Origin: Candidatus Aminicenantota bacterium
Lineage (GTDB): Bacteria; Acidobacteriota; Aminicenantia; Aminicenantales; Aminicenantaceae
DNA: 64,000 nucleotides
Direction of reading: 5' to 3'
Assembly: GCA_016927475.1 (NCBI GenBank)
Contig: JAFGMO010000047.1
Span: 1-64,000 of the forward strand
The position numbers were made by a program, and so were the translations under genes. How positions within the stretch are numbered: position 1 is the stretch's first letter; each line of letters starts with the position of its first letter. The notes beneath the pieces are model-generated. The model did no database searches, had not been told where the DNA came from, and worked only from the letters and a program-made list of their open reading frames with translations. Below are positions 12,287 through 34,359 of the stretch, piece by piece.

Positions 12287-14896
12287 TTATTCGTGGCGCA
12301 GGGAATGAACGGGGTTGGCTAGGGCGGCCTTTACGGTCTGAAAAATTACGGAAAACAGCGCAACAACCAGGGCCAAGAACGCCGCCGAAAGGAAGGGATA
12401 TACTCCCACCTGCGTCCGGTAGGCGAAATCCTGAAGCCATTTTTTTACCACAAAAAAAGCAAGCGGCCAGGCAAAGATATTCGCCACAAGCACCCACCGG
12501 ACATAATTTTTGCTGAGGAGCATCACAATGGCCGTGACGCGCGCTCCCAACACTTTGCGGATTCCGATTTCTTTGGTCCGCTGCTCGGTGCTGTAGGCCG
12601 CCAATCCAAAAATACCCAGGCAAGCGACGAATACCGTAAACTCACAGAAGGATATAAGGAGGGATGATAACCGCCTTTCGTCTTCATAAGCCCTAAGATG
12701 AAGGTCTTCAGCATAGGCTGCATCAAAAATGCTTCCGGGCAGCAGGGCATTCCAGATTTCACGAATTCCCGCGAATACATCCTGGTTTCTTTCCCCGGAA
12801 ATACGAACAAGAAATTCACCGCCTGTATCATTTGCCTTGAAAATGACAATGGGATAGATGGGTGAATGGATGGAATTCGTGTTCCAATCCCGGAGGACGC
12901 CTATAATACGGTAGTCCTGACCGCTGCGGAATATCGTCTGTCCCAAGGGATTCTCAAAACCTAACTTCCTGACGGCTGTCTGGTTGATCAAAACAGCATG
13001 CTCATCCGAGGCGCGGCCCACCTCAAAATTCCTTCCATTGATCAGTTCCAATCCCATGGTAGGAATAAAATCCTCGTCCACCTCCATGGACTGCATGATG
13101 GTACCATCCTGGTCCTGTGCGTCTTTGGTTTTTATGGTGCTGATACTCCGGTTTTGGTTCGACGGAAACCTATCCATGAATGACACCGACAGAACTCCCC
13201 CCTGGTTGAGCAAGCGGGTCTTTACAGCCTGTATATTTGCCAGTCTCTGATGCCGAAGACTCAAAACGACCAGGTTTTTATGGTCGAAACCAAGGTCTTT
13301 GCTTTCGGAATACCGGACCTGTTTGCGCACGACCAGCGTGCAGATCATAAGAGCCGTGGCAATGAAAAATTGAATGCAAACCAGGACTCTTCTCAAACTT
13401 GACTTTGATCCACCCTGTGGAATCCCGGAACGGAAGATGCTCGCAGCGGAAAACCGGGAAAGGAAAAAAGCCGGATAGGCTCCGGCCAGCAAGCCGACAA
13501 CAAGAACCATACCCGCCAATCCCGGAAAAACCCAGGAACTGGAAAAAACATTCATGTTGATGCTTTGTCCCAGAAATAGGTCGAGGCGAGGCTTGAAAAA
13601 CCAGAACAGCAGAAGCCCCAATCCCATGGATATGGACGTGATGAAAACTGATTCCATTAAAAACTGCCTGATGAGGTGAGCCCTATCTGCGCCGCAGGTT
13701 TTTCTTATTCCGACCTCTTTCATTCTGCCGGCAATTTTCGCTGTTGATAAATTGATAAAATTGATGGCGGCGACCACCAGAATGAGCAGGGCAATCCCGG
13801 AAAAGATATAGATGCGGGTGATACTCCCTGAGCTGCCCAGGTCATTATTCATATTCGCACCTGCGAGCCCCATATAAATGCTGTCTAATGGCTGGAGGTA
13901 AAAAGAAACATCCTGTTCCTCTTCAGACAGATAAGAAAGGGCCAGGTCGGTGATCTTGGCGTTTACGTTTTTGGAATCGCTCCCCTCCCGAAGAAGAAAA
14001 AATGTCGTTACCGATCCCCAGCCCACCCAGCGGGTTATCGCCTCGCCATGCGTCTCCAAAAGTGTCGAAAAAGAGGCGATCATGGGGCTTTGAAGCACGG
14101 TATTGGACGGCATATTTTTATAAACACCTGTCACTTGAAAGTCATAGGCCCGGCCGATATTCAGCCTAATAATTTGCCCCAAAGGATTATTGTCACCAAA
14201 ATATTTCCGGGCCAGTCTTTCGTCGATGACTACGGTAAACGGAGTTTCAAGAGCTGAAGCCCGAATGCCGCGGACAAAAGGGATATCAAACACTTCCAGC
14301 ATTGCCTGTTCGGCAAAGAACATTTTTTCCTCTCTGAACTCCCTGTCCTCTATCTGAACGGGAACCTGGTAACGTCTCAAGACACGAACGCTTCTTTTTA
14401 CCTCCGGGACCGACTCCTCGGCCGCAGGACCGAAAGGTCCCGCCACCTCGGCGTTGTGGAGGACTCGACTCCCCATAGGAATGCGTCCGTTCACCCGGAA
14501 AATCCGGTTCTTTAAAGGATACATGGATTCAAAGCTCAGCTCATGAAACACATAACCCGCTATGAGCAAACAGCTCGCCAGCCCAACCGCCAATCCTAGA
14601 ATGTTGAGCAGGGCATATTTCTTGTTTCGAATCATGTTCCTGGTGGCCAATTTGAGATAATTTTTTATCATAGAGATACTCCCAAAAATATTAGTGACAA
14701 GAAACTGAGGAACGAATCCGATGGTTTGCGCCCAGTACCATAACCGGGCCGCTTTCCGGCTGCTGGATATGGCCATACTCCGGTAAATCTCTTCATAGTC
14801 GCCCACAATAGACACCCTTTCGCCGGGGGGAGATACTTTCCTTAGAAGCCAAGCGGCGATTCCAGGGGGTTTTTTCTCTTTTGTTTTCTTGATCAT
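12287..14896 (-). CDS. MacB-type ABC transporter permease with N-terminal permease-prefix domain
   Basis: An 869-residue FtsX-family permease. Residues 1-75 match the permease-prefix type 2 domain seen before such permeases (PPGIAAWLLRKVSPP through GDYEEIY). Two full modules follow, each with a MacB-like periplasmic domain and FtsX membrane segments. Near the C-terminus stands the typical phrase YSTEQRTKEIGIRKVLGA. There are about eight transmembrane helices. No ATPase lies in the same transcription unit; the nearest is the divergent gene at 15141. Family members act in mechanotransmission or export rather than classical import. It is convergent with the TonB receptor gene (44-base gap). Cargo unknown. 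Confidence 0.82.
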   Translation of the reverse strand: MIKKTKEKKPPGIAAWLLRKVSPPGERVSIVGDYEEIYRSMAISSSRKAARLWYWAQTIGFVPQFLVTNIFGSISMIKNYLKLATRNMIRNKKYALLNILGLAVGLASCLLIAGYVFHELSFESMYPLKNRIFRVNGRIPMGSRVLHNAEVAGPFGPAAEESVPEVKRSVRVLRRYQVPVQIEDREFREEKMFFAEQAMLEVFDIPFVRGIRASALETPFTVVIDERLARKYFGDNNPLGQIIRLNIGRAYDFQVTGVYKNMPSNTVLQSPMIASFSTLLETHGEAITRWVGWGSVTTFFLLREGSDSKNVNAKITDLALSYLSEEEQDVSFYLQPLDSIYMGLAGANMNNDLGSSGSITRIYIFSGIALLILVVAAINFINLSTAKIAGRMKEVGIRKTCGADRAHLIRQFLMESVFITSISMGLGLLLFWFFKPRLDLFLGQSINMNVFSSSWVFPGLAGMVLVVGLLAGAYPAFFLSRFSAASIFRSGIPQGGSKSSLRRVLVCIQFFIATALMICTLVVRKQVRYSESKDLGFDHKNLVVLSLRHQRLANIQAVKTRLLNQGGVLSVSFMDRFPSNQNRSISTIKTKDAQDQDGTIMQSMEVDEDFIPTMGLELINGRNFEVGRASDEHAVLINQTAVRKLGFENPLGQTIFRSGQDYRIIGVLRDWNTNSIHSPIYPIVIFKANDTGGEFLVRISGERNQDVFAGIREIWNALLPGSIFDAAYAEDLHLRAYEDERRLSSLLISFCEFTVFVACLGIFGLAAYSTEQRTKEIGIRKVLGARVTAIVMLLSKNYVRWVLVANIFAWPLAFFVVKKWLQDFAYRTQVGVYPFLSAAFLALVVALFSVIFQTVKAALANPVHSLRHE

Positions 14897-15140: not shown

Positions 15141-15851
15141 ATGAGTCTTATTGTCACTCAAGATATCTGCAAAACATACCGTACCGGAGAAGTTGCGGTC
15201 GAAGCCCTCAAATCCGTGAGTTTCACCATCGAACCAAAATCGTTCGTCTCATTTGTTGGCCCCTCAGGCAGCGGCAAAACCACTTTGCTCAACCTGATCG
15301 GCTGTCTGGACCGCCCGACATCCGGAACTCTGGAAGTAGCGGGTATTCACATTTCCCGCCTCAACCGAAAGAAAGCCGCAGCTTTTCGCGGTTCCCACCT
15401 GGGATTCATCTTTCAGGATTTTAATCTTATCCCGGTCTTGTCCGTCTACGAAAACGTTGAATATCCTCTTCTTATGGTCCAAAACATTCCCGGCTCCGAA
15501 AGACGGAAACGCGTTCTCCATATGCTGGATGCCGTGGGAATGACCGATCAAAAGGATAAATACCCCGACCACATTTCCGGCGGCCAAAAACAGAGAGTCG
15601 CGGTAGCCCGGGCCTTGGTCACAAAGCCTCCGCTTATTCTGGCCGATGAGCCGACGGCCAACCTGGACAGCCAGACCGCATTTAAGGTCATTGATCTCAT
15701 GCATCACATGCGTGATGAATTTGGAGCAACGTTCGTTTTTTCAACCCATGACCGCAAGATTGTCCGAAGCGTGGAAACCATCTACAGCCTGACCGACGGC
15801 CGCATCAACACCCACGCCTCCTTATCCTCGCAAGGAGGAAACGATGCTTAA
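15141..15851 (+). CDS. LolD/MacB-like ABC transporter ATPase (locus 1)
   Basis: ATP-binding subunit with Walker [11 protein letters not shown]-loop in [15 protein letters not shown] signature SGGQKQRVA, Walker [14 protein letters not shown] and the H-loop STHD. Its sequence type is that of LolD/MacB, which drives FtsX-fold permeases. ATG 15141 has AAAGGG about 8 bases upstream; a GTG at 15132 would add three residues. It overlaps the next gene, the permease, by 8 bases, a sign of translational coupling. It heads the four-gene set ATPase-permease-LolA-like-barrel, paralogous to the locus at 28398-33613. Confidence 0.88.
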
Positions 15852-17082
15852 GCTTATGAAAATAGCTCTGCGTAATCTCCTTCGATATCACCGCCGTACC
15901 CTTCTCACGGCCTCGCTGATCGCCATCGGCGTCACCTTTGTGCTGGTTTTTATCTCGGCTTCAGGAGCGTTTAAAAACCTTATGATCGGCCAAATCACCG
16001 ATTCCATGCTCGGCCACATCCAGGTCCACCGCCGCGGATACATGGCATCCATCGACAGCCTGCCGCTCAATCTTAACCTCGAGCCCGGAGCCATGAATAA
16101 ATTGGAGGAAGCCCTCGCCAGCACTCCCGGGATCACCGCTGTTTCCCAGCGCATCAAATTTCCGGGCATGCTCAGCAACTTTATGGAAACGACCAACATC
16201 CGGATCAATGGTGTTTATCCCGAACGGGAGACGACCGCTGTTCCCCTGTTACCCGGACGGGTGAAAAAAGGCTCGCCTCAACTCCGTGAAGGCGAGTTAT
16301 TCGTTCCCGAGCTCTTGGCTGCGGGCATGAAACTTAAAGTGGGTGATCCAGTGGTCATTATCGCCACCAACCGCGACGGCTCCGTCAACGGCCGGCAATT
16401 TAAAGTGGGAGCGGTTATCGAGAGCGTAACCGGTCCGGGCGGACGGGACGGATACATGCACATCGAGGACGCCAGGGAAGTTCTTCGCATGGAAACACTG
16501 GAAATCAGCGAAGTCACCCTTCGCGTCCAGAATTTCTCCAAGCTTAACGAAACCGCTGAACAGCTTCGAGCCAATCTTTCCGGAGAAACCGATAAACAAG
16601 GTCGCCCTCTTTTCGATGTCCGCACCTGGGAAGATCTTTCTCCCTTTTCAAATGTCGCCCGTATGATCGATGTCATGTCTTTTTTCATCAGGCTCATGCT
16701 GATCGCCATCGTTTTGGTGGCCGTTATGAATGTCATGATCATGGCTGTTTTTGAAAGAATCAGGGAAATAGGCACCATCGCCGCTATCGGTACCAAGCCG
16801 GGACGCATTTTATCCCTTTTTCTCATCGAAGGCCTCCTTCTCGGTATATTCGGCACCGGAGCAGGTATCCTCCTGGCCGGAATGGCCACATTCGTTATCA
16901 ATGCCGCAAACATCTCATTCAACTTCGGCCGGCAGGTCGGTCTGGTGCTGTCTCCCCGTCTGGAACCCGGTCAAATCCTGATCGTAGCGGCCATCGTTAT
17001 TCTGGTCTCAACAGCGGCCGCTCTTCAGCCCGCTTTCCGGGCCTCTAGAATGGAGCCTGTAGATGCACTACGCCATGTATAA
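15844..17082 (+). CDS. LolE/FtsX-like ABC transporter permease (locus 1)
   Basis: A 412-residue permease with one N-terminal transmembrane helix (about 20-40), a MacB-like periplasmic domain, then three C-terminal helices. The coupling-helix phrase is FERIREIGTIAAIGTKPGRI, as in LolC/E. AGGAGG precedes the ATG, which overlaps the ATPase gene. Only one permease gene is present, so a homodimer is likely. The partner ATPase and the LolA-like gene 48 bases downstream argue that it extracts a lipidated or lipid cargo from the inner membrane. This is inference from the operon. Confidence 0.85.
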   Translation: MLKLMKIALRNLLRYHRRTLLTASLIAIGVTFVLVFISASGAFKNLMIGQITDSMLGHIQVHRRGYMASIDSLPLNLNLEPGAMNKLEEALASTPGITAVSQRIKFPGMLSNFMETTNIRINGVYPERETTAVPLLPGRVKKGSPQLREGELFVPELLAAGMKLKVGDPVVIIATNRDGSVNGRQFKVGAVIESVTGPGGRDGYMHIEDAREVLRMETLEISEVTLRVQNFSKLNETAEQLRANLSGETDKQGRPLFDVRTWEDLSPFSNVARMIDVMSFFIRLMLIAIVLVAVMNVMIMAVFERIREIGTIAAIGTKPGRILSLFLIEGLLLGIFGTGAGILLAGMATFVINAANISFNFGRQVGLVLSPRLEPGQILIVAAIVILVSTAAALQPAFRASRMEPVDALRHV

Positions 17083-17130
17083 AACAAACAGGCATTATTC
17101 AGGTTAACAAGAATCTGAAATGGAGCCATT

Positions 17131-17880
17131 ATGATAAAAAAAAGCTTAATCGCGGCCGGAGTATTGTTTTGTTCTCTTTCGGCGATTCCCCTTCCATCCC
17201 AGAATCCGGACGGGGACGCAATGCTTCGAAAACTGGACCGCAACCTCAATCCCGAATCCTTTGAAGCTTACCGCAAACTGATCAACATCGAGCCCAACGG
17301 CCGGAAAAAAGAATTCGTTCTTTATACCGTGAAAAAAGGCGCGGACCGGGTGGCAGCTCTTTTCCTTTCCCCTGCCAGTGAAGAAGGCCGGACCACCCTT
17401 CGACTTGACGAAAACATGTGGCTCTACATTCCCAATGTAGGCAAACCCATACGCATCACAAGCCTCCAGTCGGTCATCGGAGGAATCTTCAACAACGCCG
17501 ATATCCTGAGGTTGGACTATGCCGAGGAATATTCGGTGGAAAAAACGGAAGAACGGGACAAGGAATACCTCCTCCATCTTAAGGCCCGAACCCGGAACGT
17601 GGCTTATGACCGGTTGAGAATGTGGGTCGACAAATCCCGCATTCTGCCTAACAAAATCGAATGCCGCACCGAAGCGGACATGCTGATCAAAACCATTCAT
17701 TTCAAACAGATCAAGGACTTCGGGGGCGGTATTGTCCGGCCCTCCGTGGTCGAAACCGAAAGTCCCCTTCATGAAGGACATAAATCGGTCATGATCTTCG
17801 CCCAAATCAAGGCCCGAACGCTTCAAGACGAAGTATTCACCCTTTCCTTCATGCCAAACATGGAATCTTTGAGAAAGTGA
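17131..17880 (+). CDS. LolA-like outer-membrane lipoprotein-sorting protein (locus 1)
   Basis: A 249-residue exported protein: signal peptide (cleavage near PLPSQ), then a LolA/LolB-fold domain of the 'outer membrane lipoprotein-sorting protein' family. Diagnostic is ENMWLYIPNVGKPIRI followed by GGIFNNADIL, which aligns with MWNYLPKANKVMKI and FTNDDL of the locus 2 paralogue. Such proteins bind acyl chains in a half-barrel and move them across the periplasm. Its stop codon overlaps the GTG start of the barrel gene. It lacks a lipobox, so it is a soluble carrier rather than a LolB-type receptor. Confidence 0.8.
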   Translation: MIKKSLIAAGVLFCSLSAIPLPSQNPDGDAMLRKLDRNLNPESFEAYRKLINIEPNGRKKEFVLYTVKKGADRVAALFLSPASEEGRTTLRLDENMWLYIPNVGKPIRITSLQSVIGGIFNNADILRLDYAEEYSVEKTEERDKEYLLHLKARTRNVAYDRLRMWVDKSRILPNKIECRTEADMLIKTIHFKQIKDFGGGIVRPSVVETESPLHEGHKSVMIFAQIKARTLQDEVFTLSFMPNMESLRK

Positions 17881-19169
17881 ATCTCTTATTTTCTCTTATG
17901 TTGTCACTCACGATTGTCATTCCACTCGTACCACAGCAGGATTATTCTTTTGATTTGTCCGAGATTGAGAAAAAAAAATTTAACTTCGGCGGCTACGCCG
18001 AAGTTATCCCCTCTGTCTTCAATCTGAACACCGGTTCCCCTCTCTACCTATTGAGATATTACGACAGCCGGCCCGGAGATTACGAAGCCGGCCTCGACTT
18101 CCGGGTTCTTTTTGATGCCGGCTGGACCGAAGGGCCTTTTTCAGCAGACTTGCGGGCCAATCTGAGCTTGAACGGCAGCGAGGGGCAATGGAACGCCGGT
18201 TTTGACTTATACGAGGGAAAAATCGCCTGGAAACCCTCCCTTAATTTTTTTCTGGAAGCGGGCAAACAGCGCCTTAAATGGGGGAAAGGATATGCCTGGA
18301 ATCCCGTGGCGTTCATCGACCGTGTTAAAAATCCCAACGATCCCGAACTCGCCTTGGAAGGTTATACCGTCATACGGGCCGAGTATGTCAAAAGCTTCCG
18401 CGGACATCTTCGCACCCTTACTTTAACCGGGCTTCTTGTTCCCTCTGCATCATGGGTCAACGAAGACATCGGAGAAAAAGATACCTTAAATCTGGCTGGA
18501 AAAGTTTACCTTCTCTACGCCGACACCGACATAAATTTCATGTTTCTGGCAGGATCCGGAGTGGCGGAAAAATGTGGCCTGGACTTTTCCCGAAACCTGG
18601 TTTCAAACTTCGAGGTTCACGGTGAAGGGGCCTGGAATTTCGGCGAAAAGTTTTCCCTGCTGGACAACGAAGGGAAGCCCTTCGAAACCAAAAAAAGAGG
18701 ATTTTCCGGTCTGCTGGGTCTTCGCTACCTGGCCCCCACAAACACAACCTTTTTTCTTGAAATTTATCATAATGATCTGGGACTGAAAAAAAATGAGCTC
18801 CAGAAATATTACAGCTTCATAAACGAAGCCGCCGATCATTTCAACCTCAGCAGTGACCGGGCTCTAATGGAAAACCTTTCCGGCAAACAGGGAGCTTCCT
18901 ATCAGGGATTCACGCCCATGCAAAATTATCTTTTCCTGCGGGCTGTCCAAAAAGAGCCCTTCAATATTCTATATTTTTATCCCGCCATGACAGGCATCTT
19001 CAACCTGGATGACGGAAGCTTCCTGGCCACTGTTGAGCTGCTTTACAACCCCATCACCAATGTCGAACTGCGGGCACGGGCCGTTATTCTCCGGGGTGAC
19101 GGATTTTCGGAGTTCGGCGGCAAACCCAACAAGCACCGCTGGGAACTACGCCTGAGGGTGTATTTCTAA
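17877..19169 (+). CDS. Outer-membrane beta-barrel protein of the LolA/ABC locus 1
   Basis: A 430-residue protein with an N-terminal signal sequence, alternating amphipathic strands throughout and a terminal strand ending RLRVYF, the classic Phe-ended barrel signature. The segment GKQRLKWGKGYAWNPVAF matches GRQAIAWGSARVVNPTDI in the barrel at 28398-29657, so the two are homologous (DUF1302-like style). The GTG start overlaps the previous stop (GTGA), indicating coupled translation. Its position suggests it is the outer-membrane end point of the exporter encoded by the three upstream genes. Confidence 0.75.
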   Translation: MNLLFSLMLSLTIVIPLVPQQDYSFDLSEIEKKKFNFGGYAEVIPSVFNLNTGSPLYLLRYYDSRPGDYEAGLDFRVLFDAGWTEGPFSADLRANLSLNGSEGQWNAGFDLYEGKIAWKPSLNFFLEAGKQRLKWGKGYAWNPVAFIDRVKNPNDPELALEGYTVIRAEYVKSFRGHLRTLTLTGLLVPSASWVNEDIGEKDTLNLAGKVYLLYADTDINFMFLAGSGVAEKCGLDFSRNLVSNFEVHGEGAWNFGEKFSLLDNEGKPFETKKRGFSGLLGLRYLAPTNTTFFLEIYHNDLGLKKNELQKYYSFINEAADHFNLSSDRALMENLSGKQGASYQGFTPMQNYLFLRAVQKEPFNILYFYPAMTGIFNLDDGSFLATVELLYNPITNVELRARAVILRGDGFSEFGGKPNKHRWELRLRVYF

Positions 19170-27530: not shown

Positions 27531-28262
27531 CTATCTACGCATATCCTCCATGGTGAATTTGTCCTGCTTTGTATAATCGGCCGGCGGCTGGAAAATACCG
27601 GCACCCGCGGATTTTTCGGAAATCTCGACAACTTCCGTCGTGGTCCTGATAGTCGATCCCATCATTTCCATCTTGGTTTCACTGGCGATGTTGTAGCCGT
27701 TAATCTTCATGAACTCCTGAGCGGCCTCATCACTAAGCCTCATCTGTGTCTTGAGCATATTGGCCATCATGTTCTGGTTGAAGTCTTTCCAGTCGAAGGG
27801 GACATCCTTTGTGGCCCAGACCGTCATCTTCATTTTCATCATCATCACATCCATGTCAACATTATACCCTTCAGCACTCCACCTTCCGATTGTTTTTTTC
27901 TGGCCGAGCGGGGTCACCTTCACTTTAATCGAACCCATCATCGAGCTCATCATGGCCGCCATCTGTTCGGGCATGTAGTCATCCAGATTAACGGGGAGCG
28001 TCATGGGAATGTAGGTTTTGTTCTGGTGATTGACGAAATACAGGATCTTCTTATCCAGGTCAATAATAGAAGAATTTTCCGGCCCATGCATGGCATAACG
28101 GTTCTTCCCAATCCAGGTCTCCTGGATATCATCTTTGGCCGGTTGAGCTTGCCCCATCATGGAAACGGGGTCGGTATGCGTTTTTTGCTTGATATAAATC
28201 TCCGCTCCGGCGAATCCCGTGATAAAGGCCACGGCCAGGATTAAAGAACATAATTTTTTCAT
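27531..28262 (-). CDS. Exported DUF4412-type protein, last gene of ABC/LolA locus 2
   Basis: A 243-residue protein with signal peptide (cleavage near GFAGA). The body is DUF4412-like: Met-rich helices and strands such as MMSSMMGSIKVKVTPLGQKKTIGRWSAEGYNVDM and later KMEMMGSTIRTTTEVVEI. The fold resembles LolA-like half-barrels in its run of short strands (IDLDKKILYFVNHQNKTYIPM), so it may be another periplasmic lipid-binding partner; that is inference. AAGGAGG precedes the ATG. It follows the barrel gene by 135 bases and is followed by the operon's terminator. Confidence 0.72.
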   Translation of the reverse strand: MKKLCSLILAVAFITGFAGAEIYIKQKTHTDPVSMMGQAQPAKDDIQETWIGKNRYAMHGPENSSIIDLDKKILYFVNHQNKTYIPMTLPVNLDDYMPEQMAAMMSSMMGSIKVKVTPLGQKKTIGRWSAEGYNVDMDVMMMKMKMTVWATKDVPFDWKDFNQNMMANMLKTQMRLSDEAAQEFMKINGYNIASETKMEMMGSTIRTTTEVVEISEKSAGAGIFQPPADYTKQDKFTMEDMRR

Positions 28263-28397: not shown

Positions 28398-29657
28398 TTA
28401 AAAATATACCCGGAAAGAAACAAAAAACATATCCGGATAGGTCCCGAATTCGGAGTGTTGCAAGATAGGCGGGATATCGATCGGGCCAAGGATTCTTTCC
28501 GGTTTTTTGCCGATTCCGACGTAGGCTCCGCCGGCAAGATAGATATTCTCCGATATATTAAAATCAAGCTTCGGTGCCAACATGAAAGAACCGTCGTTTG
28601 CGTTTATCAACACCAAACCGGTGAACGGCAGAAGGGGAGTTATCTGGTAGGTCACGCCCAGTGCCAGATAATGTCGTCCCATCAGGTAAACCGAACCCTG
28701 TCGAAAAGATGAACTTCTGAGAAGATTCATGTAATCTTCGGGCCGGCTTTTTCCGGCTGAACTGAAGTGGTATTCAACAAAACCGTATGTTTTTGCACTC
28801 AAACTGTAATCCATGCCTAAGGAAAGGCGGAAGTTGTCCCGCTCACCGGCATCCGTTTCCCGGTCAAAAAAATAAGGCCGGACATACGCCGCTTCAAACC
28901 AGAAACCTGCTCCACCTATCGATCTGGAAACATCAATCCCCACCAAAAAATGGTCAAAAAATTTCATCACCAGCAGGGATAGGTCTGTCTGGAAAAGATA
29001 CGTCTTGCCCCGAAGATAAACGGCGCTTTGGTCCGGCTTGAGATCCGGGCCGGCGACGAATCCCAGATCCAGTTCGTCCATCATGCCCAAAGGAATCCGG
29101 ATGCGCAGGGCATCCACTCCCCGTCTTTCCTCCGGATCAAGCTCATTAAAAGCAAAGGGAGCTATTATGTCCGTAGGATTGACGACGCGGGCGCTTCCCC
29201 AGGCAATAGCCTGCCGTCCTAAATAGATGTCGGCAAATGGCAACCTTACCGAAAAGAACAACCGGTCAAGATTGGAAAAAAGCCCGAAACTCCCGGTTTC
29301 CTTTTCCGGACCGGGGTAGATACGGTACCTGAAGTCATCGACTCTGTAGGCGGGAGGTGAAAAATCCATAAGAAAAATATTTTCTTCAAAAAAAGAAGGA
29401 TCCTGGATGCGGGGCGAAAGGTCATAGGCGGCGTGGAAATTTAGAGAATCCCCGATGCCGATCCTGAACTTCAACCTGATGCGGTTGTTCACCAAACCAA
29501 GGTCCGGGGGATGAAGAAGGTCATCTCCGATTTTATAAGCCGGTACGGCGAAAATGGTGGAAAAGTTCTTGTAATATCCTCCCAAAAAAAAATCCGCAGA
29601 AGCAGTCTTGAACAGAAAAATAAAGGCTCCGGCAAGAAGGAGGCACTTGTTTTTCAT
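28398..29657 (-). CDS. Outer-membrane beta-barrel protein of ABC/LolA locus 2 (DUF1302-like)
   Basis: A 419-residue barrel with a signal peptide, many amphipathic strands and a C-terminal FFVSFRVYF strand. The segment GRQAIAWGSARVVNPTDIIAPF is characteristic of DUF1302-like barrels and aligns with GKQRLKWGKGYAWNPVAF in the locus 1 barrel. The ATG overlaps the ATPase stop by four bases (ATGA), so translation is coupled. Its place next to a LolD-like ATPase, two permeases and a LolA-like protein suggests it accepts the transported cargo at the outer membrane. Confidence 0.78.
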   Translation of the reverse strand: MKNKCLLLAGAFIFLFKTASADFFLGGYYKNFSTIFAVPAYKIGDDLLHPPDLGLVNNRIRLKFRIGIGDSLNFHAAYDLSPRIQDPSFFEENIFLMDFSPPAYRVDDFRYRIYPGPEKETGSFGLFSNLDRLFFSVRLPFADIYLGRQAIAWGSARVVNPTDIIAPFAFNELDPEERRGVDALRIRIPLGMMDELDLGFVAGPDLKPDQSAVYLRGKTYLFQTDLSLLVMKFFDHFLVGIDVSRSIGGAGFWFEAAYVRPYFFDRETDAGERDNFRLSLGMDYSLSAKTYGFVEYHFSSAGKSRPEDYMNLLRSSSFRQGSVYLMGRHYLALGVTYQITPLLPFTGLVLINANDGSFMLAPKLDFNISENIYLAGGAYVGIGKKPERILGPIDIPPILQHSEFGTYPDMFFVSFRVYF

Positions 29658-30373
29658 CTTTCTTTGACCTCGTCTTTCAAGATTTTCCCGTCCTGAAGCG
29701 TAATAACCCTTCGGGCCCGTTCCACAACGATGTTATCGTGGGTGGAGAAAAGAAAGGTCATGCCCGTCTTCCGGTTGAGTTCTTTCATCATATCCAACAG
29801 CGCCCCTCCCGTCTTGGAATCCAGATTGGCAGTAGGTTCATCGGCCAGGATTAAGGCCGGCCTGGAAACCATGGCCCGGGCGATGGCCACTCGCTGCTGC
29901 TGCCCGCCGGATAATTTGGGAGGCAGTCTGTTTCCCATTCCCTGAAGACCGACTTCATCCAGTATCTCCAATACGCGCTTATGTCTCTCAAGCTTGTTTA
30001 CACCTTGAAGGAGCATGATGTATTCCACATTCTCTTCTACTCTCAATACAGGAATAAGGTTATAAGCCTGAAATATGAACCCGATGTTATCCCTTCGGAA
30101 ATCGGCCAGCTCTCTTTTTTTCATTTTGCTGAGCAGTCTGCCTTTAAGCCAAACTTCCCCTCTGGTTGCCGTGTCCAGGCCGGAAATGATGTTCAACAGG
30201 GTCGTTTTTCCGGAACCGGAAGGCCCGACGACGGCCGTAAACTCACCGGATTTCAGCCTGAGGTCGATTCCCCGGACGGCTTTGACTTCCAACCCATTGT
30301 CCTTATATGTTTTTTCCAGTCCTTCGGTATAAACGATGTAATCCTTTATTTTACGGACGTTCATCTCTTCCAT
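29654..30373 (-). CDS. LolD/MacB-like ABC transporter ATPase (locus 2)
   Basis: A 239-residue ATPase: Walker [11 protein letters not shown]-loop region FIFQAYNLIPVL, signature LSGGQQQRVA, Walker [15 protein letters not shown]-loop STHD. It is closely similar in type to the locus 1 ATPase. Start may be M1 or M4 (both ATG). It lies 16 bases after the second permease gene and overlaps the barrel gene by four bases. It would energise the FtsX-type permease pair encoded just upstream. Confidence 0.88.
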   Translation of the reverse strand: MEEMNVRKIKDYIVYTEGLEKTYKDNGLEVKAVRGIDLRLKSGEFTAVVGPSGSGKTTLLNIISGLDTATRGEVWLKGRLLSKMKKRELADFRRDNIGFIFQAYNLIPVLRVEENVEYIMLLQGVNKLERHKRVLEILDEVGLQGMGNRLPPKLSGGQQQRVAIARAMVSRPALILADEPTANLDSKTGGALLDMMKELNRKTGMTFLFSTHDNIVVERARRVITLQDGKILKDEVKER

Positions 30374-30389: not shown

Positions 30390-31616
30390 TCAAAGGCTTT
30401 TTCTCATGGCGTCGGTTACCGACATCCTGGCCGCAACCGTGGCCGGATATAATCCGATAATCAAGGTAAAAATAAAGACGGCCAGCGGATAAATGATGTA
30501 CTGCCGGATGTGGATAACCGGATAAAGCATCTCATAAATGGTCGACCCGGCAAATTCAATACCCCGGTAATCAACACCTGTTTTGGTAAATATAAATGTC
30601 AGCAGGAAACCAAGGACAGCCCCGACAAAAATACTAATCAGGGCCATGGCGCCCGCTTCCAGAATAATCAAGCGCCGCACGCCTCCCGGCCTCGTTCCCA
30701 CAGCCCGCAGTACTCCGAACTCAAACAGCCGTTCATATAGCGACATAAAAAGTGTGTTGACAACCCCAAAGGTAACAATGGCAAAAAGAATGACACCAAT
30801 GATCATAAGCATGATACCGGTCATCTCGAAGACCGATTTCAAGTCGGGCAAAAGCTCCGCCCAGGAAACCATCTCATTTCCTTCTTGAGAATATTTTTGC
30901 CAAAGTGGGAGATTTTCCTTTGCAGCATCTTCCATGTTTTTGAATTTAACAGCAATTTCATGGACATCGTTCTCCAGTCCGAGCATTTGCTGGGCCTTTT
31001 TGAGGGGAATAAAAGCCATGCCCGTATCCATTTCCCGGACGTTAAACGTGTAAATACCGGCAATTCGGAACATTTCCTGGGACAGGTCGCCGGTCCCCGC
31101 CTGGGCACAGGTAGCCACCACCCGGTCACCCAGTCCGACATCAAGGATCTCAGCCAATTTACTTCCGATAACAATGTCCCTTCCTGTCTCACTGGACAAG
31201 AACTCACCACGGTTTATGGCATCATCGATCCGGGATAGTTTCCTTTCCTTATCCGGTTCTATTCCTACCAGCAAAACACTATTGACATCCGCCGGGGAGG
31301 TTATCATACCGAAAGTCAAGGTTCTCAGTGCAAATCTATCCACCAAATCCTCCCCCTCAAGGCTTTTGACGACTGACGGCAGATTGTTGACGGTCTTCTC
31401 AACCTCCCGGGTCAGCCGGTAACCTTTCTGATGGATCTGTGCTTCTCCCAGGAAAGAAGAAGTGGCGGATTGTATCATGTTTTTTTTCATGCCGATGATA
31501 AAGGCATCACTGAAAATCAACGACGCCAGACCTAAACCGATGGCCACAGCCGTGATATAAGTCCGGCGTTTGTTTCTGAAAATGTTGCGCCAGGCAAGTT
31601 TGACAGGGTACCACAT
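30390..31616 (-). CDS. LolC/E-like ABC permease, second of pair (locus 2)
   Basis: FtsX-fold permease with an N-terminal transmembrane helix (AVAIGLGLASLIF), a MacB-like periplasmic domain, and three C-terminal helices. The coupling phrase is YERLFEFGVLRAVGTRPGGV. I chose ATG 31616, which has GAGGAG 8 bases upstream; two TTG codons before it would add two residues. It is 12 bases after the first permease gene. The two permeases differ enough to form a heterodimer, as LolC/LolE do. Confidence 0.85.
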   Translation of the reverse strand: MWYPVKLAWRNIFRNKRRTYITAVAIGLGLASLIFSDAFIIGMKKNMIQSATSSFLGEAQIHQKGYRLTREVEKTVNNLPSVVKSLEGEDLVDRFALRTLTFGMITSPADVNSVLLVGIEPDKERKLSRIDDAINRGEFLSSETGRDIVIGSKLAEILDVGLGDRVVATCAQAGTGDLSQEMFRIAGIYTFNVREMDTGMAFIPLKKAQQMLGLENDVHEIAVKFKNMEDAAKENLPLWQKYSQEGNEMVSWAELLPDLKSVFEMTGIMLMIIGVILFAIVTFGVVNTLFMSLYERLFEFGVLRAVGTRPGGVRRLIILEAGAMALISIFVGAVLGFLLTFIFTKTGVDYRGIEFAGSTIYEMLYPVIHIRQYIIYPLAVFIFTLIIGLYPATVAARMSVTDAMRKSL

Positions 31617-31628
31617 CAACAATTCTCC

Positions 31629-32846
31629 TCAATGAAAGCGCATGGACCGGGCCGGATCCGTCCTGGCCGCTTTGAGGGCGGGAAACAGGCTGACGAATCC
31701 CGCCGACAGAAGAACGATCAAAGCCGGAATGAAAAAACTTCTGGTGTTGATCTCCGACCTCATGGCCCGGATTTCTATTCCTCCATAGGTGATAGGATTG
31801 GAAAGGCTCAGACCATGTGACGCGAAATAGGTGTTGATTAAAAGCCCGGCAATAGCACCGGCCACAATACAAAAAAGGGCCAAAAAAGTTATTTCCAAAA
31901 GAACGATTCGAATAACCTGGGAAGGTTTTGTCCCGACCGCTCGAAGCACACCGTACTCTCTCTGTCTTTCGAGAACGGACATAAGAACCGTGTTCAGGAC
32001 TCCGACGGCGACAATGATGATGATCACGACAAGCATAATCCACATGCCTTCCTTATCGGCCTTCATAGCCATATAAAAGGAACGGGCAAACTCCTGCCAT
32101 GGTTCCACGGAAAGACGGGGATTATCCAACTTCTCCTCAATGATACGATGGATCCGCTCCACATCGTTCAGGTTATTAATGGTAACGGCAACCTCATGGA
32201 CACGTCCCTCGAGAACAAGAAATTTTTGGGCTTCTTCCAGGGGAAGATAAAAAGCGGTCCTATCCGTCATCTCATCGCCGCTTTCAGTGATACCAATCAA
32301 TCTGTAAATATCATTGGCTATGGAGCCGTCTGCAGCTTGGGAGATAACAACTATTTCATCCTCCACACCCGCCTTAAGAATCTCGGCCAATCCTTTTCCC
32401 AGGATAACTTCAGCGGCAGAAGCCGAAGAAAAAGCACGACCTTCAATTATTTTTTTATTGAAAGAAGTCGTTTTATTTTCCCTAACGGGGTCGATACCCA
32501 AAATCTGAACACCGGCCGTTTTGTCGTCCAAAGAAGCCAATCCGGCTGTATAAAGACGGGGAGTCCAGCTTTCAACACCAGAAACCTCCTCCAAGGTACG
32601 GTTGATTACGGACATATCATTTATGGTTTTATAGAGGGAAGGCCGGTCAAGGTAATCTTTTTCATGGATTTGGATGTGGCCCAACCGGTTTCTGGTGAAC
32701 ATATCAATGATTCCGTTATATGTCCCATCGGCCCAGCCTATAAAAAAAGCCGCCAGGATAAATCCGCCGAACATGCTCAATGCCGTAAAAAGAGTTCTTC
32801 TCCTTTGCCGGAAAATATTACGAAAGGCTATTTTCAGTAAAACCAT
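31629..32846 (-). CDS. LolC/E-like ABC permease, first of pair (locus 2)
   Basis: A 405-residue FtsX-family permease: N-terminal transmembrane helix (FTALSMFGGFILAAFFIG), a periplasmic domain of about 220 residues, then three helices with the coupling phrase LERQREYGVLRAVGTKPSQV. The ATG lies two bases after the stop of the LolA-like gene, so the genes are tightly coupled. Together with the next permease it matches the LolC/LolE arrangement. Confidence 0.85.
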   Translation of the reverse strand: MVLLKIAFRNIFRQRRRTLFTALSMFGGFILAAFFIGWADGTYNGIIDMFTRNRLGHIQIHEKDYLDRPSLYKTINDMSVINRTLEEVSGVESWTPRLYTAGLASLDDKTAGVQILGIDPVRENKTTSFNKKIIEGRAFSSASAAEVILGKGLAEILKAGVEDEIVVISQAADGSIANDIYRLIGITESGDEMTDRTAFYLPLEEAQKFLVLEGRVHEVAVTINNLNDVERIHRIIEEKLDNPRLSVEPWQEFARSFYMAMKADKEGMWIMLVVIIIIVAVGVLNTVLMSVLERQREYGVLRAVGTKPSQVIRIVLLEITFLALFCIVAGAIAGLLINTYFASHGLSLSNPITYGGIEIRAMRSEINTRSFFIPALIVLLSAGFVSLFPALKAARTDPARSMRFH

Positions 32847-32848
32847 GG

Positions 32849-33613
32849 TCAGATTCTCTTCCTTAGATTTCTTAAGGTAAAGATGTCCTTATCCAGCGTG
32901 ATATCAAACCGTATGGATTGATACCTGATGATGGTTTTGTGACCTGTCTTGTTCAATGGGGTTAGTTCCATCACCGAAGGAATCTCACGACCGTCAAAAT
33001 CTTTGATATCCTTAAAGACGATTTCCCTCATTAATTCTGATTTTTCATCGTAATATTTCTCCCAAACGGGAATAGAATCCTTCTCCCTTACGGCGATCAA
33101 AATATGCCCCCAGACTATCGGCAAATCCTCATGGGGCACACATTTTACATAGAGCAAACCCGGTTCCGGGTCGTCGACCTCCACCGGGGAATAATCATAA
33201 TCTTCAAAGATGGAAAATTCCTTGACCAGGTCGTCATTGGTGAAATCCGATCCCATCCAGGATCCCATCATCATCGACGGCGGTATCTTCATAACCTTAT
33301 TGGCCTTCGGCAGATAATTCCACATCTCGCTGCTGATGCGCAGTGTCGCCATGCCTCTTTCTTTTTTTGGTTCGAGGATACGGATAAACGTCTTTTCCAT
33401 TCCCTCTGTCCAAACATCCATCTTTAAGGTCCGGCTCCAGTGGGGGGTTATGATCTCCATTTCCATCCGGCCGGCACTTGTTTTGCTGCGGTAAAGGTCA
33501 TCGATTTTTTTGACGATAGTCTCAGCATCTCCTTCCTGAGCCTTTACCGAAACCCGGATAAAAAACAACATCAACAGCATTCCCGGCAGCATCACGGCTG
33601 TAATCCGTTTCAT
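32849..33613 (-). CDS. LolA-like outer-membrane lipoprotein-sorting protein (locus 2)
   Basis: A 254-residue exported protein with a signal peptide (cleavage near VKAQ) and a LolA/LolB-like domain. Key stretch: SSEMWNYLPKANKVMKIPP, then GSDFTNDDLVKEF, matching the locus 1 paralogue. The C-terminal strands (PSVMELTPLNKTGHKTII, YQSIRFDITLDKDIFTL) are typical of the family. AGGAGG lies 5 bases before the ATG. It follows the TetR gene by 66 bases and precedes the permeases by two. No lipobox, hence a soluble periplasmic carrier. Confidence 0.82.
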   Translation of the reverse strand: MKRITAVMLPGMLLMLFFIRVSVKAQEGDAETIVKKIDDLYRSKTSAGRMEMEIITPHWSRTLKMDVWTEGMEKTFIRILEPKKERGMATLRISSEMWNYLPKANKVMKIPPSMMMGSWMGSDFTNDDLVKEFSIFEDYDYSPVEVDDPEPGLLYVKCVPHEDLPIVWGHILIAVREKDSIPVWEKYYDEKSELMREIVFKDIKDFDGREIPSVMELTPLNKTGHKTIIRYQSIRFDITLDKDIFTLRNLRKRI

Positions 33614-33679: not shown

Positions 33680-34297
33680 CTATTCACGGCGAATTCCTTT
33701 TAAAATGGTTACTATCATGGCCTCGACCGCCCCCTCCATGTTAAAATTTTTCTTGTCAAGCAGCCACTGGATCATGACCCCGTCCATCATGCCGATCAAC
33801 ACCGAAGAAACCAGCCTGGGTTTGATATCGGGTCTAAAACTTTTATCCCGAATACCATCTTTCAGAATTTCTTCAAGCAGTTTCCCATATTCCTTGTAAA
33901 AATTTTTCAGCTCGTTCAGAATCGGTTTTTTTGATGCGCTGCTTTTCATTCCTTCGGCCCAAACATCAAAGATTAATTCGATAAAACCTTGATCATCCGA
34001 TTGGATCATCTTTACCAGAAGTCGAAAAATACCAGCAAGCTTTTTGTCAGCGGCTTGGGACGATGCGAGAACTACGGAAAAATCAAATCCCAGTGCCCGG
34101 ACAAAATAGGAAAATCCTTCATGGATGAGCTCTTCTTTTGTCGAAAAATATTCGTAAACCGTTCCTTTTCCAATGTTCGCTTCCATCGCCACATCGGAAA
34201 TGGTCGTCCGGGCGAATCCTTTTCGGGCAAAAACTTGAATCGCCGCCTTGATGATCTTTTCCTTCTTGGCTTCTTTGTCAACGATGATGGCACTCAT
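33680..34297 (-). CDS. TetR/AcrR-family repressor of ABC/LolA locus 2
   Basis: A 205-residue regulator. The N-terminal TetR DNA-binding domain reads KIIKAAIQVFARKGFARTTISDVAMEANIGKGTVYEYFSTKEEL, with the helix-turn-helix at TTISDVAMEANIGKGTVYEYF. The C-terminal domain binds an unknown ligand. I chose ATG 34297, preceded by GGAG; the longer frame from 34339 would run through the operator. A 20-base palindrome 10 bases upstream of the start is the likely operator, so the gene probably represses itself and the six genes behind it. Confidence 0.85.
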   Translation of the reverse strand: MSAIIVDKEAKKEKIIKAAIQVFARKGFARTTISDVAMEANIGKGTVYEYFSTKEELIHEGFSYFVRALGFDFSVVLASSQAADKKLAGIFRLLVKMIQSDDQGFIELIFDVWAEGMKSSASKKPILNELKNFYKEYGKLLEEILKDGIRDKSFRPDIKPRLVSSVLIGMMDGVMIQWLLDKKNFNMEGAVEAMIVTILKGIRRE

Positions 34298-34306
34298 TCC
34301 AACTCC

Positions 34307-34326
34307 ATGACCGACTGGTCGGTCAT
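34307..34326. promoter_or_regulatory. Predicted operator of the locus 2 TetR repressor
   Basis: The 20-base palindrome ATGACCGACTGGTCGGTCAT has two perfect 9-base arms around a 2-base centre. It lies between the -10 box and the ribosome site of the TetR gene, where binding would block transcription. Its TGACCGAC...GTCGGTCA form is usual for TetR-type operators. Confidence 0.75.
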
Positions 34327-34330
34327 TATT

Positions 34331-34359
34331 AGAGTACACCCAATTGTTTTTTGTGTCAA
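34331..34359 (-). promoter_or_regulatory. Promoter of the TetR/ABC/LolA/barrel operon
   Basis: On the minus strand, perfect TTGACA (34354-34359), a 17-base spacer and a weak TACTCT -10 (34331-34336). The operator palindrome begins four bases downstream of the -10 box, over the expected transcription start. Confidence 0.55.

Follow-up and report, generated by a model that had tools for sequence, protein, structure and literature searches.

Four adjacent genes in a genome of Candidatus Aminicenantota, encoding an ATP-binding cassette (ABC) ATPase, a permease, a LolA-like carrier and an outer-membrane beta-barrel, raise the question of whether they form a single transport system and, if so, what it would carry. 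The genes, here called locus 1, lie in a 64,000-nucleotide stretch of DNA that was analysed as a whole and is referred to as the window (contig JAFGMO010000047.1, or C70, of a 4.99 Mb assembly that is 94.8% complete). The four parts keep a constant order and are inherited together, the carrier is kin to solved LolA-like proteins, and its partner gene encodes a predicted barrel fold. We consider it reasonably likely that locus 1 is a conserved trans-envelope shuttle, and the operon probably carries a greasy molecule out through the cell envelope.

Locus 1 is a four-gene operon with a conserved order

Calling of open reading frames (ORFs) placed the four genes of locus 1 where the initial annotation had put them (Table 1). 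The overlaps it described hold for the ATPase and permease (8 bases) and for the carrier and barrel (4 bases), but not for the permease and carrier, which are separated by a gap of 48 bases. The ATPase is 40% identical to Escherichia coli LolD, and its best NCBIfam model is LolD (TIGR02211; 216.6 bits, under the equivalog cut-off of 307.75). The closest NCBIfam model for the permease is lolCE (TIGR02212), at 121.4 bits, which does not reach the equivalog cut-off of 362.45. An FtsX domain combined with a MacB_PCD periplasmic domain places this permease in the type VII ABC superfamily, and it presumably acts as a homodimer. For the carrier, PF17131 is the sole Pfam family at E values up to 0.1, and the canonical LolA family, PF03548, was not matched. 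Its profile also matches the solved structure 3buu (E 2.5e-43), which is named only as an uncharacterised protein of the LolA superfamily. By these two matches the carrier belongs, like that of the AmeABCD exporter discussed below, to the LolA-superfamily periplasmic carriers.

A scan of the genome collection with the carrier returned at least 556 relatives, and the loci of the best 80 were examined. These 80 carriers are 63-79% identical to the query over the best segment, an identity that is high by selection because they are the best 80 of at least 556. According to record titles, their hosts are Aminicenantes, other Acidobacteriota, Planctomycetota, Deltaproteobacteria, Nitrospirota, Nitrospinota, Omnitrophota, Auribacterota and Calditrichota; locus 1 itself has its closest relatives in Candidatus Aminicenantes. 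The order ATPase-permease-carrier-barrel was found in all 44 complete operons outside the window, spread over seven phyla by record titles, with genes mostly overlapping or closely spaced. The other 36 loci did not enter the comparison of the four trees, since each had a gene truncated at a contig end or missed by the ORF caller, which drops genes that lie beneath longer antisense ORFs.

Table 1. Positions of the features discussed, in window coordinates unless a locus handle precedes them
Feature	Coordinates	Strand	Basis or remarks
ABC ATPase, LolD/MacB-like, 236 amino acids (aa), locus 1	15141..15851	+	PF00005 (ABC_tran) E 3.9e-34
Single type VII (FtsX/MacB-fold) permease, 412 aa, locus 1	15844..17082	+	PF02687 FtsX E 1.3e-12; PF12704 MacB_PCD E 4.7e-12
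Shortened hairpin ATNRDGSVNG at the position of the LolA-binding Hook of LolC	16363..16392	+	Aligned to E. coli LolC and LolE and to the LolF-like protein of this genome
Second transmembrane segment with Met 274, 278, 285, 295, 298 and 300	16654..16764	+	Conserved in 45 type I permeases
Permease-carrier gap, 48 bases	17083..17130	.	Site of the exported NifX-like gene in relatives; gene absent here
LolA-like periplasmic carrier, 249 aa, locus 1	17131..17880	+	LolA_like PF17131 E 1.9e-40
Carrier signature block M96-W97 ... F120-N-N-A-D124	17416..17502	+	M96, W97, F120, N121, N122 and D124 invariant in 45 rows
Outer-membrane beta-barrel, 430 aa, about 18 strands, locus 1	17877..19169	+	AlphaFold2 model, fold matches
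Barrel signature GKQRLKWGKGYAWNP	18261..18305	+	G129, K130, W135, G136, Y139, A140 and P143 invariant in 45 rows
Barrel, locus 2	28398..29657	-	Family profile matches that of the type I barrels, E 2e-6
ATPase, locus 2	29654..30373	-	PF00005 E 1.1e-35
Second permease, locus 2	30390..31622	-	PF02687, PF12704
First permease, locus 2	31629..32846	-	PF02687, PF12704
LolA-like carrier, locus 2 (type II)	32849..33613	-	PF17131 E 9.7e-45
NifX-carrier fusions, five Planctomycetota	L085:2366-3421, L097:2253-3308, L099:6614-7669, L115:2777-3871, L130:6614-7669

Five carrier sets in one genome and five architectures

Of the 11 PF17131 matches in the genome, five are strong, at 131-202 bits, and six are weak, at 23-33 bits. 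The strong ones all sit in transporter sets, namely locus 1, locus 2 of the same window, and the sets C58, C83 and C14; four of these are ABC-driven and one is driven by a resistance-nodulation-division (RND) pump. The gene order of C58 is that of locus 1, C83 reads barrel-ATPase-permease-permease-carrier, and C14 reads carrier-barrel-RND pump-UbiA-like gene, the last of which we take from its sequence to be a UbiA-like prenyltransferase. In C14 (L013:7242-12979) the pump that drives the carrier-barrel module is a 948-aa MMPL/RND protein with a sterol-sensing-domain match. That every strong match falls in a set points to more than chance; on the other side, the six weak matches, two of them barely above the 30-bit cut-off, lie outside sets of this kind.

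PF17131 was present in 57 of 60 related genomes. Strong matches in relatives numbered about 115, and regions were taken for 60 and then for 9 more. A permease or RND gene lies no more than five genes from the carrier in 67 of the 70 carrier rows of the genome and its relatives; in the three exceptions (L025, L032 and L055) the carrier is at or near a contig end. Based on gene order, the rows could be sorted into type I (ATPase-permease-carrier-barrel; 15 of 70), type II (carrier-permease-permease-ATPase-barrel; 4), type III (barrel-ATPase-permease-permease-carrier; 21), type IV (carrier-barrel-RND; 8) and type V (RND-carrier-barrel; 15), with 7 rows in no type. The motor is thus not a fixed part of the set, since an RND pump takes the place of the ABC parts in C14 and in 23 of the 70 rows (types IV and V).

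Co-inheritance of the four genes

The initial annotation had proposed that the four parts travel as a unit, to be checked by building trees for all four protein families and to be refuted by clearly different histories. Such histories were not seen. All four trees separate into matching architecture clades, and the number of label changes is close to the least possible in each (carrier, 6 against 5; ATPase, 4 against 4; permease, 8 against 6; barrel, 5 against 5), with the caution that the types were themselves defined by gene order. In the carrier tree, which holds 61 rows after 9 of the 70 were left out for lengths outside 200-330 aa, types II, III, IV and V each occupy one side of a branch, and type I splits into the group of locus 1 and a small separate group with C58. 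Among the 45 type I operons (the 44 and the window), patristic distances correlate at 0.78-0.89 for the six family pairs (each p 0.001, 999 permutations). Pairs of gene trees share 19-25 of 42 splits, compared with means of 0.12-0.22 and a maximum of 3 after shuffling. Seventeen splits are common to all four trees, one of which joins Omnitrophota (to which we presume Aadella to belong), Auribacterota and a Thermodesulfovibrionia, and the window operon groups with Aminicenantes in all four. The congruent trees therefore support the four parts as a travelling unit.

Mean pairwise identity over the 45 operons is 70% for the ATPase, 68% for the permease, 73% for the carrier and 55% for the barrel. 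The window barrel is unusually divergent, with a mean of 42% to its orthologues compared with 68% for the window carrier, the window carrier, permease and ATPase together ranging over 63-68%. This suggests that the outer-membrane part changes faster than the rest.

Features of the permease, carrier and barrel

In E. coli LolC, residues 167-179 form the Hook that enters LolA, according to PMC10865981. At this position the type I permeases carry a short hairpin, ATN(R/K)DGS(V/I)NG in the rows shown, of which T175, N176, G179, S180, N182 and G183 are invariant in 45 rows. Of the methionines in their second transmembrane segment, M285, M295 and M298 are not methionine in any type Ib, II, III or E. 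coli LolC/E row shown, and for the other three this is partly so. The third row of alignment A5 has a short N-terminus with a guessed start.

The AlphaFold2 models of the carrier and barrel have a mean predicted local distance difference test (pLDDT) score of 80 and 87.7, respectively, and the barrel model has about 18 strands. The barrel matched no Pfam family, a search of its sequence against the PDB gave no match, and in a Pfam search of its family weak Wzi matches appeared in 3 of 19 members (best E 0.0045). Foldseek ranked the alginate exporter AlgE first (E 8.9e-12). VIA-align 2 placed a BenF-like porin and Occ (OprD/Occ) first (Z 23.5, root-mean-square deviation 3.1, 310 aligned), followed at lower ranks by AlgE (22.2) and Wzi (19.4); Omp85 was not among the fold matches listed for the model. 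A shared barrel fold, here a predicted one, gives no proof of function. At the profile level, type I barrels are related to those of type II (E 2e-6), type IV (E 3e-11) and type V (E 6.6e-9, over 84 columns only), and type II to type IV (E 1.4e-19); DUF1302 was matched by all six type V barrels.

An exported-looking NifX-like domain in related operons

A Nitro_FeMo-Co protein is encoded just upstream of the carrier in 18 of the 72 named loci with a called carrier, and it lies between permease and carrier in 15 of the 61 loci in which the permease was also called. These NifX-like proteins mostly have 118-146 residues, and two of them match PF02579 at E 4e-15 and 2e-12. Most start with a hydrophobic signal-like stretch; export was judged from this N-terminus together with cleavage-like sites. 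In the five Planctomycetota fusions (Table 1) the Nitro_FeMo-Co domain occupies the N-terminus of the carrier in one frame, and the carrier's own signal-like stretch is gone. Neither form was found in 41 of the 61 loci. The phylogeny of the domain parallels that of the carrier (r 0.84, p 0.001, n=23), and presence of the gene (14 of 45 operons) requires 6 changes on the operon tree. The cysteines of the domain are not conserved. In the same superfamily, NifB, NifX and NafY handle Fe-S clusters and IssA stores thioferrate (PMC5524996).

The window locus has no NifX-like gene between permease and carrier, and no exported NifX-like partner was found in the 95% complete genome, because none of its 4 PF02579 matches looks exported by eye. 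Expression studies of other NifX-like genes shed no light on this. Among 83 co-directional flanking genes, counted with no background control, the commonest Pfam family was Metal_resist (7), and ZraR-like regulators, arsenite-methyltransferase-like proteins, rhodanese and multihaem-type cytochrome proteins occurred 3 times each. In one Nitrospirae type I operon, a 720-aa protein with a Peptidase_M1 domain is encoded between carrier and barrel (L105:7700-9862).

Proposed function and alternatives

By analogy with work on type VII transporters (PMC12646458), with the LolA fold and with the precedent of AmeABCD, a shuttle mechanism can be proposed. The ABC complex would extract an amphiphile from the inner membrane, and the LolA-like carrier would take it into its half-barrel and shield it across the periplasm. 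The loaded carrier would then dock on the 18-stranded barrel and may hand over its cargo, which the barrel would insert into the outer membrane or release outside. Receiving cargo from the carrier, the barrel would therefore stand where LolB does in lipoprotein sorting. We infer export rather than uptake, and a lipid-like cargo.

Several observations weigh against this shuttle. About six residues of the Hook loop are missing in all aligned type I, Ib, II and III permeases, and because of this short loop the docking of the carrier must differ from that in Lol; in the sequence alignment, the LolF-like protein of the genome keeps these residues. Length is not decisive by itself, since the loop of LolE nearly equals that of LolC in size although LolE does not bind LolA. 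Type III barrels have no detectable profile kinship to type I (E 0.28), and the congruence of the type I trees may largely follow species history. An exported NifX-like domain, finally, would not be expected of a plain lipid shuttle.

That last domain is a point in favour of a metal-related shuttle, with metal sulfide, a metal cofactor or a metal-binding lipid as cargo, the NifX-like domain binding the metal and the carrier shielding the rest. Its exported look, its place between permease and carrier or in the five additional fusions, its tree, the Fe-S material bound by IssA, NifB, NifX and NafY, the metal-related flanking genes and the conserved membrane methionines all agree with this idea. 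We nevertheless regard it as unlikely: the domain is lacking in most of the named loci and in the window, its cysteines vary, no cysteine or histidine is conserved in 90% of the 45 carrier rows, the flanking metal genes are a minority counted without background, and methionine in a membrane helix may only be hydrophobic. It would be bolder, and is doubtful, to see in type I a new class of envelope shuttle in which a LolA-like carrier and a metal-cluster-binding NifX-like domain export metal-sulfide or metal-lipid cargo. Such export might conceivably serve detoxification, or mineral or electron chemistry at the surface, and the NifX part would, on the same speculative footing, be separate in some lineages, fused in Planctomycetota and lacking in that of the window. 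A duplicate Lol system that serves some special class of lipoproteins, in which the barrel would act as a surface translocator or as an insertase, is quite improbable. The ATPase's identity to LolD, the closeness of the permease to lolCE and the LolA-like carrier speak for it, as does a related proposal for Borrelia BBJ23-29 (PMC13078400); yet the scores fall far below the Lol equivalog cut-offs, the carrier has no PF03548 match, the Hook loop is shortened and near-canonical Lol genes exist elsewhere in the genome. These are a LolF-like permease (355 bits against the lolCE cut-off of 362.45) beside a LolD-like gene, and two canonical LolA (PF03548) genes away from the sets, on C9 and elsewhere on C70, so that locus 1 is not the genome's only candidate lipoprotein sorter. 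A housekeeping Lol system was rejected on the cut-offs, the loop and these other genes.

A tripartite drug or peptide efflux pump of the MacAB-TolC kind would fit the MacB_PCD and FtsX domains of the permease, but is very unlikely, given that ATPase and permease are separate ORFs; it was rejected for the lack of any conserved adaptor gene in the 44 complete operons and for a barrel model that matches porin-like channels. Related genomes can retain a gene order through descent, but the probability is negligible that the four genes are chance neighbours or keep their order without a shared function: the order holds across seven phyla by record title, five sets occur in one genome, the carrier clades track architecture, and the operon's accessory domain is fused to the carrier elsewhere, which together refute this explanation for practical purposes.

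The second locus of the window

The initial annotation presented locus 1 as a minimal version of an exporter also encoded at locus 2, with one permease rather than two. The permease counts are right by ORF calling and Pfam. Identity between the loci is 46% for the ATPase, 28% and 25% for the permeases, 26% for the carrier (E 8e-17) and 24% for the barrel, the last only in its C-terminal part (E 0.003 in a 13-protein database; profile-profile E 2e-6). The shared motifs are also genuine: the carrier signature MW-Y-P...F-N-D is part of PF17131 conservation, and the barrel signature G-(K/R)-Q-..-WG-..-NP recurs slightly altered in barrels of types I, II, IV and V. Locus 1 is, however, no trimmed locus 2. 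Both lineages are old and have orthologues of their own, the carriers stand apart on long branches, and these deep branches rule out a recent local duplication as the source of both. To speak of the same exporter exceeds the data, as permease, hairpin, barrel and neighbours vary by type. Two sets within 20 kb are weak evidence on their own; the strength lies in the five sets of the genome and the constant order across phyla.

Next to locus 2, a DUF4412 protein (E 7e-8) is encoded directly downstream of the barrel (27531-28262) and a regulator that is TetR-like by its sequence upstream of the carrier (33680-34339). Large FtsX-type permeases, 34% identical to each other, adjoin two of the five sets (window 12287-14896 and L012:8105-10726); we take them to be of the ADOP kind.

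Relation to known systems

The closest precedent with an RND motor is AmeABCD of Castellaniella defragrans (PMC6394551), an efflux system for apolar monoterpenes in which an RND pump goes with a LolA-superfamily protein and a barrel of the DUF1302 family. When AmeABCD is deleted, monoterpenes are tolerated less well and more Nile Red accumulates. Like locus 1, its operon joins a barrel in the outer membrane and a LolA-superfamily carrier to an energised pump in the inner membrane. Its motor is an RND (HAE3) pump, unlike the ATP-driven type VII ABC transporter of locus 1, though an RND motor is present in the C14 set of the genome; its carrier is DUF1329 rather than PF17131; and its barrel is DUF1302, whereas that of locus 1 has no Pfam match, its family being related by profile over 84 columns to the DUF1302-matching type V barrels (E 6.6e-9). 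Moreover, AmeABCD includes AmeC, and the operon of locus 1 holds, beyond pump, carrier and barrel, no fourth gene that could be AmeC. Of all the types, V (RND-carrier-DUF1302 barrel) comes nearest to AmeABCD, and its barrel profile is a distant relative of the type I one. Pseudomonas putida requires a DUF1302/DUF1329 pair on Tween 20 (PMC10866462). Iron-regulated TetR-MMPL-LolA-like operons of Porphyromonas and Prevotella pair an RND-type motor with a LolA-like protein in the order of type V; they differ in their RND core, and their last gene is annotated only as hypothetical (PMC10434189, PMC10470040).

The nearest ABC version in print is the Borrelia BBJ23-29 proposal (PMC13078400), an exporter of a non-polar ligand with a type VII ABC ATPase and permease, a LolA-like carrier and an outer-membrane barrel. 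The barrel is probably different: that of Borrelia is of the Omp85 family and is accompanied by two TPR proteins, whereas the barrel model of locus 1 best matches AlgE/OprD-type channels and no further gene is present. The LolCDE/LolDF-LolA-LolB systems share with locus 1 the ABC fold class and a LolA-like carrier, and a hydrophobic transfer from inner membrane to carrier may be common to both. They differ in the equivalog scores, the longer Hook loop and the barrel gene in the operon of locus 1, and LolB is not among the genes of that operon, though no search aimed at LolB was made. In the open-access literature, which leaves subscription papers mostly outside, neither an operon of ABC parts, PF17131 and a porin-like barrel nor a pairing of NifX with LolA was found described. 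The RND form is already known from AmeABCD. The set of locus 1 is genuine and conserved, and the sources searched contain no description of it.

The PF17131 family, so far uncharacterised (3buu), hereby becomes part of a testable system with a motor, a carrier and an outer-membrane acceptor. The fusion of NifX-like domain and carrier offers a concrete handle on the cargo and is the part most worth following. The comparison of architectures suggests one carrier-barrel module driven by three types of motor, namely ABC with one permease, ABC with two, and RND, which matters for the question of how lipids and other hydrophobic molecules get across the periplasm where no bridge spans it.

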